A DNA stretch of 36,711 nt from positions 1 to 36,711 of the forward strand of contig JAHIWE010000089.1 in the NCBI GenBank assembly GCA_018816105.1. The letters run 5' to 3'. The notes beneath the pieces are model-generated. The model saw only the letters and a list, made by a program, of their open reading frames with translations. It made no database searches and was not told the origin of the DNA. The stretch comes from a bacterium. Its GTDB lineage: Bacteria > Campylobacterota > Campylobacteria > Campylobacterales > Arcobacteraceae. The number at the start of each line of letters is the position of its first letter. The stretch's first letter is position 1. This document shows positions 6,153 through 12,378 of the stretch, piece by piece. The translations under genes were made by a program, and so were the position numbers.

Positions 6153-6181
6153 ATTATAACTTAACTAGAGTTAAATGTCAA
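6153..6181 (-). promoter_or_regulatory. S10 operon promoter, consensus -35 and -10
   Basis: Read on the minus strand, TTGACA (6176-6181) and TATAAT (6153-6158) are separated by exactly 17 bases. The predicted start point is near 6146, giving a leader of about 59 bases to rpsJ. Within the spacer an inverted repeat TTAACT-AG-AGTTAA (6161-6174) lies between the two boxes. The transcript would begin close to a short hairpin (CCAC/GTGG, 6134-6146). Confidence 0.85.
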
Positions 6182-7578: not shown

Positions 7579-8805
7579 TTAAATTATACTTTTGCCACAA
7601 TTTGAACAATAATCTAAACCTTGTATTATCATATGATGACAAGAATCACATTCTACTTTTAGTTTATTTTGACAACAAGGACAAAAATTCATACTATTAA
7701 AATCAACTCTATTTCCACAGTTATTACAAATATTTTTATTATATGATTCTACTTTTGTAATACTATTGTTTTTTAATCTATTGTTTTCTTCTTTAAATTT
7801 CTTTTGTAATTTAATTATTAAATATCCAAATATAAAAATAAATATTGTAATCACAAAATAATAAACTATAAAAGGAACTTCAAGTTCATAAAAAAATCTT
7901 AATACTTTTTCAATAAATATTTTAGGTAAAAGTTCATATACCAAACTTATTATTGATATTACTGTTGGAATTAAACTTACTATTAATATGTTTTTAAACA
8001 GTATATAAAGGATATATCTCTCTTTTGTTAAATACCTTTTCATCATATAAAAAAACATAAATACCAATGGTAATAAAAAAGCTAGAGTTACTAACTCTCT
8101 TTTTATGCTATATGCTTTATTCATAGATTCTATATCTAGATTTATTTGCTCTTTATTTGTAGATACAAAAGATACTAATTCTTCTACACTTTTTGATTTA
8201 ACAAAGTTATTATTTAATTGCTCTAGCTCTTCTTTAATTCTTTCAAACTCTTTAATATAAGCATCATGTTTTTCTTTAATATTTTGAGTTGATAAATCAT
8301 CTTTGATTATTGATTTATCTTGAGTTTGAGAACTCATTTTTTCAAATAAAACTGTATTGTAGTTTTCTCTTATATATGATAATTCACTATCTATTTTACT
8401 TTGATTGTTTAATAGCTTATTTGATGAAGATATTAATTCTTTTATATTGTGTTCTTTTTTAACTAAATTTATTTTTTCATTTAATAAAATACATCTACTA
8501 TCTTCTTGTAAATCTTTTATTCCTTGATAATTTTCTTCACTATAATAGTTATCATACTTTTCTTTCATATAAAAATATTGTTTAAAATCATCAATATGAT
8601 TATTGTTAAGAACATCACGACATTTATAAGGATAAGTAACTGTTGGACTATTTAATACTTTAACTTGAAAATCAATACCAAGACCTATTGTAATAAAAAT
8701 AAATATATTTAATATTGCAATAAACATAATAGTTAATTTTGATAATTTTTCTTTTCCATTGTAAACAAAATTGTTTGAATAGAACTTTTTTATAAACTCT
8801 TTCAT
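7579..8805 (-). CDS. Membrane protein with large extracytoplasmic coiled coil and C-terminal double zinc ribbon
   Basis: I do not recognise a named family. The 408-residue product has a hydrophobic segment at about 24-43, then a polar, coiled-coil-rich region (about 44-235) with two cysteines (C62, C104). Further hydrophobic segments lie at about 236-255, 266-290 and 311-331. The C-terminal tail carries two zinc ribbons: C360/C363 with C375/C378, and C386/C389 with C400/C403. If the N-terminus is inside, the coiled coil is periplasmic and the ribbons are cytoplasmic (inference). The start at 8805 has AGGAG 10 bases upstream. The gene is 92 bases downstream of the VWA gene in the same direction, so it may be the last member of that cassette. 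Function unknown. Confidence 0.7.
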   Translation of the reverse strand: MKEFIKKFYSNNFVYNGKEKLSKLTIMFIAILNIFIFITIGLGIDFQVKVLNSPTVTYPYKCRDVLNNNHIDDFKQYFYMKEKYDNYYSEENYQGIKDLQEDSRCILLNEKINLVKKEHNIKELISSSNKLLNNQSKIDSELSYIRENYNTVLFEKMSSQTQDKSIIKDDLSTQNIKEKHDAYIKEFERIKEELEQLNNNFVKSKSVEELVSFVSTNKEQINLDIESMNKAYSIKRELVTLAFLLPLVFMFFYMMKRYLTKERYILYILFKNILIVSLIPTVISIISLVYELLPKIFIEKVLRFFYELEVPFIVYYFVITIFIFIFGYLIIKLQKKFKEENNRLKNNSITKVESYNKNICNNCGNRVDFNSMNFCPCCQNKLKVECDSCHHMIIQGLDYCSNCGKSII

Positions 8806-8897: not shown

Positions 8898-9992
8898 TTA
8901 TAGATAAATACTTCGCCCAAAAGGAACATCAATTTCATCTTTTGTTAAAACCCAAACTGTATCAAAACTTCCTTCATCTTGGGGAAATTTTCCAAAGCCA
9001 TCAGTAAAATACAATAAAAGATTTACATCTTCAATATTTTCATCTATATAAATAAAGGTATTTTCAAAGTTTGTTCCACCTCCACCTTTTATAGTATATG
9101 ATAACTCATCCCCTGCGTATAAGATATGATGCTCTTGAACTTTTGCATCAGCTATTAATAAATCAATTTCAAAATTTGTAAAAGTATTCATAATAGATTC
9201 AACTTCTGATAAAAATCTTGAGAGTAAACTTCCATCGATTGAACCTGAACTATCTATTGCAATTACTACTTTTACTTTTGAACCACTTAGTGCTGGAAGT
9301 GCTATACCAGAACTTAAATATCTTTTATTAGCAGGAAACAATCTATAATCAAACTTTACAGCTTGTTCAATTACTTGATACAGCTCATCTTCCCAAGAGA
9401 TTTTTCCCTCAAATAAATTTGGTACAAAAATCTCAATTCCCAAAGGTAAATCCCCTTGAAGTTTTGCTTTATTTAAAAGTTGTTCACTCATATCTATTAG
9501 TGATTCCTCATCATCTATTTCTTGTTCTTGTTGATTTTCAAAACTTATATGTGAGATTTGTTCAGGAGTATGTTTATCATCATCTATTTCATTTTCAAGT
9601 GTTGCGTATATTGCTTCTGCACTCATATCATCAAATCTCATATCATAGTTTATATGTTCTGGTATTTCTAAACCATTATTTACAAGTAAAGAGTTTATTG
9701 CATAATCACTTGCTAAACTCCAAAGCCATGGCATTCTATTTTCTAATCTATTTTGATGATTAAAAGCTTGATGCATAGCTGAGTTTGTAAGAACAAAAGC
9801 TAACTCTTCATTTGATAAGGATTCAATATAAGTATCATTGTATTCAAAGCTATTTTTTGAGGATTTAAAAGTTTTGATATCTTCATTTAAAATAGGTTTT
9901 AAATATGAAGCAATTGAGCCAAAATAAGGTTGATCTATTATCAAAGATGATTTTACCCTTGAAATTTTTAGCTCTGTGTTTTCAATATTCAT
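8898..9992 (-). CDS. DUF2201-type VWA-like protein, MoxR partner
   Basis: The 364-residue product fits the putative-metallopeptidase/VWA-like architecture (DUF2201 N- and C-terminal domains). The C-terminal VWA half has a MIDAS-like metal site: DSSGS at 247-251, GGGTNF near T307, and FTDG with D331. The N-terminal half keeps the W..A.D..IN helix (about 92-100). Where I expect HExxH it reads NSAMHQAFNH (70-79), so the first His and the catalytic Glu appear replaced. This suggests a non-catalytic, binding role (inference). An acidic linker (about 133-170) separates the halves. Proteins of this type pair with MoxR-family AAA+ ATPases as remodelling or metal-insertion modules, and the ATPase gene lies 6 bases upstream. 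Confidence 0.8.
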   Translation of the reverse strand: MNIENTELKISRVKSSLIIDQPYFGSIASYLKPILNEDIKTFKSSKNSFEYNDTYIESLSNEELAFVLTNSAMHQAFNHQNRLENRMPWLWSLASDYAINSLLVNNGLEIPEHINYDMRFDDMSAEAIYATLENEIDDDKHTPEQISHISFENQQEQEIDDEESLIDMSEQLLNKAKLQGDLPLGIEIFVPNLFEGKISWEDELYQVIEQAVKFDYRLFPANKRYLSSGIALPALSGSKVKVVIAIDSSGSIDGSLLSRFLSEVESIMNTFTNFEIDLLIADAKVQEHHILYAGDELSYTIKGGGGTNFENTFIYIDENIEDVNLLLYFTDGFGKFPQDEGSFDTVWVLTKDEIDVPFGRSIYL

Positions 9993-9998
9993 TTAATA

Positions 9999-11003
9999 TC
10001 AGCCTATTAAAAACTTATTTGCATTTACCCATGATTTCCAAGATGTAGAACTTTCTACATCAATACCTTCTTTTTGTAAATCTCGAATCAACATAACTGA
10101 AAATTCATTTGGTAGAGCTAGGGAATAATTCAAAATATTTGTTACATTTTCAACACTTGAATTTTGTTTTAAAGAATACACAATTCCAGTGCATAAAGCA
10201 TAAAGTACTGAATTATTACTCGGAACTTCATTTGACTTTGCATTTATAATTTCTTCTATATTTGGAAGCTTATCTATAACTTTACAAAAGTTCATAAACT
10301 CATCTGCACTCTCTTTCCCTACGGCTCCACTTATTACATCTTTTAGAAGATCAATTTGTAAATTTGAATTTAAAATATCATTTACAAAAGACCAAGATCT
10401 TGGTGTTGCAAATGATTTCTCTTTTGCTTTTGCATCAAAGGTAAAAAGATTTTGAGGTTTATATGATAAAAAAGAGATGATTCTTCTATCAATCTTACTT
10501 TCATAAGCCCAAGATTTCCATTCAGTAAAATCTAAATCAAAATTAAGATGTACAAATCTATTTGCCAAAGGCGTTGGCATTCTATATGTCACTCCCCTAT
10601 CGCTTTCATAGTTACCAGCAGCTACGATTGCATAATTAATTGGAAATGTATATTCACCTATTTTTCTATCTAAGATAAGCTGGTAAGCTGCTGCTTGAAT
10701 TGTAGGAGGGGCTGAGTTTATCTCATCTAAAAAAAGTATTCCAGAAGCTTGAGTATTAGAATCTGGTAAAAACTCTGGTTTTGCCCAAACAGCACTTTTA
10801 TTTGCTGCATCAAAAAAAGGGATTCCTCTTAAATCTGTAGGATCTAGAAGTGAAAGTCTTAAATCAATAAATTCCATAGATTTATCACTTGCTATTTGTC
10901 TTATAAGTGATGATTTTCCAACACCTGGGCTTCCCCATACAAAAACTGGAATTTTTGAATCTATCATTGCTATTAATGATTTTTTTAAGCTGCTTGCTTT
11001 CAT
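9999..11003 (-). CDS. MoxR-family AAA+ ATPase
   Basis: Predicted cytoplasmic AAA+ remodelling ATPase (AAA_5/MoxR branch). The 334-residue product has Walker A GSPGVGKSS at 24-32, Walker B ILFLDEIN at 89-96, sensor 1 AAGN at 128-131, and an arginine-finger segment PLANRF ending at 150. The C-terminal part is helical. ATG at 11003 follows the previous gene's ATG-TAA by one base and has AGGAAT upstream. The VWA gene follows 6 bases downstream, so the two should be made together. MoxR-VWA pairs act as chaperone-like modules on specific partners; the substrate here is unknown. The third gene of the run, just upstream, may supply target binding (inference). Confidence 0.88.
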   Translation of the reverse strand: MKASSLKKSLIAMIDSKIPVFVWGSPGVGKSSLIRQIASDKSMEFIDLRLSLLDPTDLRGIPFFDAANKSAVWAKPEFLPDSNTQASGILFLDEINSAPPTIQAAAYQLILDRKIGEYTFPINYAIVAAGNYESDRGVTYRMPTPLANRFVHLNFDLDFTEWKSWAYESKIDRRIISFLSYKPQNLFTFDAKAKEKSFATPRSWSFVNDILNSNLQIDLLKDVISGAVGKESADEFMNFCKVIDKLPNIEEIINAKSNEVPSNNSVLYALCTGIVYSLKQNSSVENVTNILNYSLALPNEFSVMLIRDLQKEGIDVESSTSWKSWVNANKFLIG

Positions 11004-11004
11004 T

Positions 11005-12378
11005 TTACATTCCTACCATTTTTCTTGTAAATTCTCTAAAAGAATCATTATTTGAAATAATATTTTTTAAACCACCATCATATTGATATTGTAAAAGTAT
11101 ATTTATTGGTGTACTTATATTTGCACAAAGTGATTCATTTATATATCTATCATTTAAAGCTGCCAAACTTTTCAATACTTCTTTTGGAGTTGAAATGTTT
11201 TGAGCCAGTGATAAATTTACATCATAATCATCAAGTGAAAAAAGATATAGATATAGTTGTGTTGGTAAAGTCGTATTATGAGCAATACTAATATTATAAA
11301 TCTTATCTTGAAGTTTTAAAAACTCTTCTATTTTTACTTTTGAACAGTTTTTATTTTTTAGTAAATTTATATTTGCATTATCAATATTTTTCTCAAAAAG
11401 TTTATTTATCATCCCTTCATCTAAACTAAGATTTGAACTTAAATAAACAGCATTTATATCATCTATATCTTTATATAGTTTATTAAATAACTCAAGGCTA
11501 AGATTTGCTTTTTTTAAAAACTCTTTTTTTAGATTTTGATTATTTAAAAATCCATCTATAAATGAATCATCATAATTATTAGCTTTTATTAAAGATAGGC
11601 TTATCTCTTCTATATTTTTTTCAAAAAGTTTTTTTTGAATCATCAAATTTATAGATTCATTTAAAGCTAAAAATTTCAACTCATTAATTTTAGAATTTTT
11701 CAATATTTGCAATTGTGTTATTTTTGAACTGTTTGGATTTAAAGCAACTACTTCTTTTAAACTTAAAGGCTGATCTTCTTGTGCATTTTTTGCTGAAATT
11801 GTATAGTTTGGCATATTATAAATAACATCTAAAAGATTTGAATTTGTAGTTTCTAAAGCTGTATAATAAACTCCAATTGGAGCATATTGAATATTGTGGT
11901 TTGTTTCAATTAGTGAGCAAAATCTCTCTACTATTTTTGTACAAACATCTCGATTGTCATCACTATCATAAATATCATCATTTTTAAAATCATATAATTT
12001 TAAAAGTTTAACAAAAATATCATCAGAGAAAAAATTATTACTTAAAAGTTTAATTAATCTGTCATTATCTTTTGATATTTTAATTGCCATTAAAATTGAG
12101 TCAATATCTAAATTTGAAGAGAACTCTTCTTCTAGTTTTTCGATTTGTATTATTTGAATTTGTTTTTTTGATAGCTCGTAAATTGTATCTTCTAAGTGAA
12201 TTGGTGTAAATTTACCTTGGATTATGATTGTAGCTTCATTTATAGAGTTTACTAAAACTGAACCTTTTTGAAGAAGATATTTTTCTAATTCACTTTTGTC
12301 AATTTTATCACCTCGACCTGCAAAAAAAATGTTTTGATTTTCTAATTGTATATTTTCCATAAAGGCATAATAACCCAT
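11005..12378 (-). CDS. BRCT-like N-terminus plus about nine LRV-like 26-residue repeats
   Basis: No named family recognised. The product is 457 residues from the ATG at 12378, or 451 from the ATG at 12360; neither has a clear ribosome site, so the start is uncertain. Residues about 15-85 look like a BRCT fold (NIFFAGRGDKID..., then an IIIQGK strand). From about residue 214 the protein is a tandem array of units beginning N-x-S/T, with boundaries near 214, 240, 267, 292, 316, 342, 368, 394 and 420. The last four full units are exactly 26 residues. NISTPKEVLKSLAALND and NPNSSKITQLQ resemble leucine-rich-repeat-variant (LRV) helical repeats. Such solenoids usually bind proteins or nucleic acid. 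It is followed immediately by the MoxR and VWA genes, so a target-recognition role is plausible but unproven. Confidence 0.7.
   Translation of the reverse strand: MGYYAFMENIQLENQNIFFAGRGDKIDKSELEKYLLQKGSVLVNSINEATIIIQGKFTPIHLEDTIYELSKKQIQIIQIEKLEEEFSSNLDIDSILMAIKISKDNDRLIKLLSNNFFSDDIFVKLLKLYDFKNDDIYDSDDNRDVCTKIVERFCSLIETNHNIQYAPIGVYYTALETTNSNLLDVIYNMPNYTISAKNAQEDQPLSLKEVVALNPNSSKITQLQILKNSKINELKFLALNESINLMIQKKLFEKNIEEISLSLIKANNYDDSFIDGFLNNQNLKKEFLKKANLSLELFNKLYKDIDDINAVYLSSNLSLDEGMINKLFEKNIDNANINLLKNKNCSKVKIEEFLKLQDKIYNISIAHNTTLPTQLYLYLFSLDDYDVNLSLAQNISTPKEVLKSLAALNDRYINESLCANISTPINILLQYQYDGGLKNIISNNDSFREFTRKMVGM

Follow-up and report, generated by a model that had tools for sequence, protein, structure and literature searches.

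A conserved three-gene cassette of Campylobacterota joins a MoxR–VWA pair to a BRCT–LRV protein and may encode a non-proteolytic remodelling machine

Within a 36,711-nucleotide stretch of an Arcobacteraceae genome (assembly GCA_018816105.1, contig JAHIWE010000089.1, positions 1 to 36,711; hereafter the window), three adjacent minus-strand genes encode a 457-residue protein that we term REP (11005..12378), a 334-residue MoxR-type AAA+ ATPase (9999..11003) and a 364-residue DUF2201_N + DUF2201 protein with a VWA domain (8898..9992; hereafter the VWA protein). REP combines a BRCT-fold head, a conserved middle domain and a leucine-rich repeat variant (LRV) solenoid. The genes are linked and co-occur across Campylobacterota; the motor and metal-site motifs are intact in their products, and the HExxH peptidase site of the VWA protein is lost. 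We favour, with moderate confidence, the view that the three genes encode one ATP-driven remodelling machine of the MoxR–VWA type, in which REP would be the dedicated adaptor. MoxR–VWA machines are widespread, and many have no known client. Here the third protein is conserved and its folds can be recognised, which offers a handle on partner choice, on the docking site and on the fate of the dead peptidase domain. The cassette also links a bacterial machine with a protein family frequently met in phages, where its members often bear the label of HNH or homing endonuclease.

An earlier note, made from the sequence alone, had placed the MoxR and VWA genes 6 bases apart and the 457-residue gene 1 base upstream; the open reading frame coordinates agree, with a gap of 1 base between REP and MoxR and of 6 bases between MoxR and the VWA gene. 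A consensus scan found no terminator-like site between the three genes. REP matches occur in 15 of the 104 Arcobacteraceae genomes and are full-length in nine, the window included. At seven of the eight other full-length loci, REP, MoxR and the VWA gene lie in a row on one strand, with REP and MoxR overlapping by up to 32 bases or separated by up to 9, and G072 keeps the order with inserted genes. Across the class, 91 of 397 genomes carry a REP match at E 0.001, and in 69 of the 397 (counted by hand from the match listing) the N-terminal part is covered. At 40 class loci, taken from the top of the match listing downwards with a few skipped, MoxR follows REP on the same strand within 300 bp in 33 cases and within 1 kb in 35; the remaining five have no MoxR beside REP, or only a fragment on the opposite strand. 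A profile search of a named genome collection, from which 80 of 127 REP relatives were kept, placed MoxR within 300 bp after REP in 78 of 80 loci, the exceptions being a run of N (L157) and an insertion (L214). REP and MoxR often overlap by 4–14 bases, and the VWA gene starts 800–1700 bases after REP at 55 of 78 named loci (50 of the 63 with at least 2.5 kb of downstream sequence). The class and named sets overlap in species, and their counts are not additive. Titles in the named collection include Hydrogenimonas, Sulfurimonas, Sulfuricurvum and Arcobacteraceae, and REP–MoxR adjacency was found in five families of the class. The laboratory strain Sulfurimonas indica NW8N (L203) carries the whole trio, with REP, MoxR and the VWA gene in this order. 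An 827-residue open reading frame that resembled a natural REP–MoxR fusion proved to be an artefact, its junction being the run of N (L157:1853-1952).

The genes also co-occur. A VWA match is present in 68 of the 69 REP genomes and in 19 of the 328 others (Fisher p ~1e-57, a value that ignores relatedness and assumes that both searches covered the same 397 class genomes), and in the lone REP genome without such a match, G339, MoxR is cut by a contig end. In several genomes the two genes lie far apart on the same contig (0.48 Mb in G352, ~100 kb in G313, 64 kb in G147, and in G298 0.95 Mb as numbered, or ~0.5 Mb if the contig is circular), so that linkage does not explain all of the co-occurrence. 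Thus, the suggestion of the earlier note that the genes form one conserved unit beyond the relatives of Arcobacter is borne out in class and named genomes alike, and the pattern which that note had named as speaking against a single system, namely REP homologues far from MoxR–VWA pairs in most genomes, was not seen. A single-sequence scan found no REP outside Campylobacterota. The 80 kept profile relatives carry Campylobacterota or unspecific bacterial titles, except for one titled Desulfosporosinus (L234, likely mislabelled); the profile scan patterns were built from Campylobacterota proteins, and distant relatives elsewhere could escape them.

No family matched REP significantly (best E values of 0.32 for Pfam and 0.075 for NCBIfam, and no listed match from PADLOC or PHROGs), and no BRCT sequence-family match emerged from Pfam and NCBIfam scans of REP or from a family scan of 45 members. 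An AlphaFold model and fold comparison nonetheless confirmed the suspected BRCT-like N-terminus as a BRCT fold at residues 9–88 (12115..12354, minus strand), most similar to the BRCT domains of DNA ligase and RFC. The predicted 26-residue-repeat solenoid was likewise recovered at residues 219–443 (11050..11724, minus strand): within residues 214–443, self-match lags of 52 and 26 rank as the top two of 50, the best lag value was reached by 0 of 1000 shuffles, and helices in the model are spaced every 24–26 residues. The solenoid is of the LRV type, as seen from its two-helix repeats of ~24–26 residues, from family matches at E ≤0.1 (LRV_2 in 27 and LRV in 12 of the 45 REP members) and from a structure match to 1lrv; the window REP itself has no LRV or LRV_2 match at E 0.1 in the same scan of 45 members. 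Between head and solenoid lies a helical middle domain (residues 91–190; 11809..12108, minus strand). Its mean pairwise identity over 45 sequences is 0.416, compared to 0.301 for the BRCT domain and 0.283 for the LRV arm. It contains an acidic loop with an RD motif (residues 136–144; 11947..11973, minus strand), in which residue 138 is acidic in 115 of 117 REP rows, and D140, R143 and D144 are conserved in 106, 116 and 110 rows, respectively. This loop is a candidate ligand of the VWA metal site.

The ATPase is a member of the MoxR AAA+ family: Pfam AAA_3 (32.4 bits, cut-off 27) and AAA both match above cut-off, PHROG 1297 matches nearly end to end (E 3e-104), and Walker A, Walker B and sensor 1 patterns are present in all 44 MoxRs examined. 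Its partner belongs to the DUF2201 VWA family, with DUF2201_N (E 1e-21) and DUF2201 (E 3e-18) above cut-offs and an additional match to PHROG 1314. The metal ion-dependent adhesion site (MIDAS; DxSxS, T, D) of its VWA domain (8904..9269, minus strand) is intact in all 83 distinct VWA proteins that the window and the REP-bearing loci provided. DUF2201_N is annotated as a putative metallopeptidase. At the place of the HExxH motif (9771..9785, minus strand), the window protein reads N-S-A-M-H, having lost the glutamate and the first histidine, and none of the 83 proteins has His-Glu there. The cassette protein thus appears to lack the zinc site expected of an active DUF2201_N metallopeptidase. 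The glutamate is also missing in the proteins examined from two further kinds of MoxR–DUF2201 pair, namely ten from Arcobacteraceae pairs without REP (type B) and seven of type C, in which HTLLH replaces HExxH. Phage proteins, on the other hand, keep the motif: it is present in the six first examined, in two from phage-like contigs of G075, and within the first 200 residues of every one of 80 proteins taken from IMG/VR contigs, out of at least 594 matches (the scan patterns did not contain HExxH, but all proteins of the query alignment carried it). Plasmid proteins keep it in 9 of 11 cases; it is lost in Variovorax, and the Sphaerospermopsis protein has no HExxH at the first place and another copy elsewhere. 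Loss of the site is thus not unique to the REP-linked clade, but is complete among the clade members read. The model of the VWA protein is of moderate quality (pLDDT 76.4, pTM 0.46), and no solved-structure relatives of its DUF2201_N half appeared among the matches listed in a search that barely probed this half.

In the machine that we infer from these features, including its complex formation, docking site and direction of action, MoxR would form the AAA+ ring motor, and the VWA protein would serve as its co-chaperone, gripping a partner via the MIDAS. The peptidase-like domain would no longer cut and would instead act as a binding scaffold. The middle domain of REP would dock on the MoxR–VWA core and its acidic loop might, as a guess, supply the MIDAS ligand, as has been proposed for acidic residues of NorB with NorD. 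The BRCT head and the LRV arm would hold a client, and ATP hydrolysis would force this client, or the complex that contains it, into a new conformation. Because the MIDAS and the motor motifs are preserved, whereas the site for proteolysis is dead, the likely action is remodelling without cutting. Given the likeness of the head to the BRCT domains of DNA ligase and RFC, a first guess at the client would be a protein of a DNA-bound complex.

By analogy, the cassette probably works like NorQ/NorD, in which a MoxR ring and a MIDAS-bearing VWA protein act in nitric oxide reductase maturation (PMC9976466, PMC13036017). The VWA domain is modelled to plug the pore of the AAA+ ring while the MIDAS binds an acidic patch of the target (PMC9976466), and a cryo-EM study of NorQD lends support to a twist in a linker of the VWA protein (PMC13036017). 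The cassette differs in having DUF2201_N instead of the NorD N-terminal domain, in the compact size of its C-terminal VWA domain (~128 residues in the model, compared to 33 kDa for that of NorD; PMC9976466), and in its additional BRCT–LRV protein.

Several observations weigh against a REP-guided machine. At 7 of the 40 class loci no same-strand MoxR lies within 300 bp of REP; all seven genomes do have a VWA match. In a tree of 61 VWA proteins, in which some long branches were flagged, 33 proteins from REP loci and ten type B proteins form one clade (support 100/100), with type B placed beside Hydrogenimonas (support 99/97). Type B pairs thus nest within the REP clade, yet lack REP at all ten loci read, so that a MoxR–VWA pair can persist without it; by the same nesting, REP was probably lost in the type B lineage. 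A specific role of REP as phospho-reader is doubtful. The canonical phosphate site of BRCT domains is a Thr/Ser preceding the Gly of the first loop, and in REP this Thr/Ser is mostly missing (present at residue 20 in 4 of 45 sequences, with Gly21 in 45 and Lys/Arg22 in 40), which argues against membership in the phosphate-binding subclass. Finally, REP may not be a target reader at all, since it could itself be the target.

This last possibility, the main rival, holds that REP is a client which MoxR and the VWA protein fold, load or release, as NorQD serves nitric oxide reductase, and which then does a job of its own, such as the binding of DNA or protein by the BRCT head and the LRV arm. We regard it as unlikely, even though the conserved acidic loop would be just as fitting in a MIDAS target. 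Also in its favour, short REP tails of 126–175 residues (L075–L079) stand without MoxR–VWA alongside in 5 of the 104 Arcobacteraceae genomes. Three of them (L076–L078; 126–134 residues), from three genomes of another genus, directly follow the HIT gene, which is the cassette's place in the window, and similar short proteins occur in G059 and G074; they are either remnants of lost cassettes or independent small proteins. The identities point in both directions: in comparison with the closest relative, G001, REP has the highest identity among the three proteins (REP 89, MoxR 88, VWA 84%), but in comparison with G035 (69/78/76%) and G091 (68/79/77%) it has the lowest, which is more typical of a recognition part. 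Moreover, family scans revealed nothing enzymatic or cofactor-related in REP for which maturation would be required.

Less probable still is that the cassette is an anti-phage or stress-triggered conflict module with REP as the sensor of invaders. Such a module would resemble the MoxR–vWA ternary systems, which also combine MoxR and vWA proteins with a constant third protein (Kaur et al, 2020; PMC7159879). A patchy distribution (REP in 1 of 30 other genomes of the same genus), relatives of the MoxR–DUF2201 pair that are common in phages and present on plasmids, and a divergent repeat arm that would suit a sensor are in line with this idea. However, the third protein of the cassette is BRCT–LRV, no variable effector domains were found, and the VWA domain ends its protein: Pfam places DUF2201 at residues 242–363 of 364, with no effector, EAD or other domain after it. 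Pfam and NCBIfam scans of REP and the VWA protein gave no match to the ternary-system third components iSTAND, FtsH or beta-propeller, and these scans, together with that of the 45 REP members, gave none to VMAP, for which the libraries may not hold all models. With PADLOC, MoxR drew partial AAA matches only (best DolB, E 1.3e-6), and the other proteins drew no match. Besides, the window flanks are housekeeping genes, and their identity to G001 (Ddl 92, MurF-like ligase 91, HIT protein 94%) is not far from the 84–89% of the cassette, which fits vertical descent, with loss elsewhere. That the three genes merely travel together as an operon of convenience, with REP making no contact to MoxR or the VWA protein, is very improbable: MoxR–VWA pairs do occur without REP in type B loci and phages, but the co-occurrence holds where the VWA gene is unlinked, adjacency is kept across five families, and Thermus, too, has an LRV partner.

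In their main text, Kaur et al use none of the words BRCT, LRV and DUF2201 (PMC7159879). In line with the remark of the earlier note that no function had been described for the trio, the literature searched (most subscription papers and preprints lie outside it) contained no paper on such a trio and none that brings LRV together with MoxR or with BRCT. Five papers combine three of MoxR, vWA, ternary system and BRCT, in each case without BRCT; DUF2201 appears in four, and MoxR together with Sulfurimonas in one. Since the ternary systems share the two-protein core but differ in third proteins and effector domains, a BRCT–LRV third protein on a known MoxR–VWA core is new within this literature.

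The core pair itself has many mobile relatives. VWA relatives were found in 222 and MoxR relatives in 815 of 50,697 phage records, and MoxR–DUF2201 relatives in 54 of 72,556 plasmid records. The phage and plasmid pairs, exemplified by the N4 gp24/gp25-like pair of phage Pollock, fall in the same PHROG 1297/1314 families, which the cassette proteins match nearly over their full length. The phage pairs differ from the cassette in their retained HExxH (80 of 80 loci read) and in the third protein: no phage-borne REP relative was found in IMG/VR by single protein or profile, the REP profile matched none of the same 80 phage VWA loci at E 0.01, and the phage collection held one weak 44-residue match and the plasmid collection none. 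Phage LRV proteins do exist, as the best BFVD fold matches to REP include those of uncultured Caudovirales phages (A0A6J7WYX0 and others; E 3.7e-8).

Other lineages carry different third proteins or none. On a Thermus oshimai plasmid (pTHEOS01), an LRV protein (Pfam LRV, E 2.6e-11) lies directly upstream and overlaps the start of MoxR, which in turn overlaps the VWA gene. This LRV protein has 296 residues and no BRCT family match; the associated HExxH is intact, and the VWA protein falls outside the Campylobacterota clade. LRV partners are thus found in two lineages that the VWA tree keeps apart. Cupriavidus, Robbsia, Variovorax and Rhodovastum plasmids encode an ATPase, a different protein of 295–308 residues and then the VWA protein (L238, L241, L245, L248); the Cupriavidus representative of this third protein has no Pfam match. 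Simplicispira has a 286-residue protein before the VWA gene, with several small genes and then an ATP-binding protein, and in Synechocystis pSYSA the MoxR gene is next to the VWA gene, with such a protein found neither between the two nor immediately in front of them. These loci suggest that the MoxR–VWA core takes lineage-specific third partners. A tentative scenario, to which we give perhaps a third of our belief, is that in an ancestor of Campylobacterota a MoxR metallopeptidase machine of the phage or plasmid type gained a BRCT–LRV reader and, within the same segment of the VWA tree, lost its peptidase site. It would thereby have become a reader-guided machine for non-proteolytic unfolding or hand-over, with the acidic loop of the reader facing the VWA metal site.

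Some further features of the relatives deserve mention. PHROG 1314 labels the DUF2201/VWA protein as an HNH endonuclease, and the phage records H6, H8, H18 and H20 label it as an HNH or homing endonuclease; this is probably a propagated label. On the phage-like contigs of G075 (L064, L065), the VWA and MoxR genes are followed by two proteins with BRCT-like text by eye, although a Pfam scan of the pair from one contig found no BRCT. Type B pairs (L047–L056) have, at 8 of 10 loci, a conserved upstream gene on the opposite strand that reads as an FAD-type oxidoreductase. Type C pairs (L057–L063, L066) have a conserved ~236-residue protein beside or near the VWA gene, and the one that was scanned has no Pfam match above cut-off.

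In the window, which stems from a genome assembly of 2.78 Mb in 183 contigs, REP is preceded by genes for a HIT protein, a MurF-like ligase, an alpha/beta hydrolase and a protein read as Ddl. The VWA gene is followed by a zinc-ribbon membrane protein (7579..8805, minus strand), a DAO-type oxidoreductase and the S10 ribosomal operon. The clusters around REP loci, inspected by eye only, vary by lineage. The earlier note had described a complete, co-produced machine followed by the zinc-ribbon protein. The three-gene unit and the architecture of REP stand, and the zinc-ribbon protein is indeed present; it is not a conserved neighbour, and we rejected it as a fourth component. In G001 the stretch from the VWA gene to the S10 operon lacks it, and among the eight other Arcobacteraceae loci with full-length REP it lies near the cassette only in G035 and G091, whose proteins show 46–51% similarity to it.

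The true start of REP may be Met7 (12360), because residues 1–7 have low confidence in the model (pLDDT <50) and most of eight homologues begin at alignment columns 7–10, the start of one of them (L070) having been assigned by hand. The consensus scan counted 46 promoter-like sites, compared to 49.3 in shuffles, and four terminator-like sites, compared to 1.3 (standard deviation 1.1); two of the latter are on the minus strand, one of them inside REP (11883-11870). A sigma-70-type match (12/12, spacer 17) lies at 6153-6181 on the minus strand, upstream of the S10 ribosomal protein gene.

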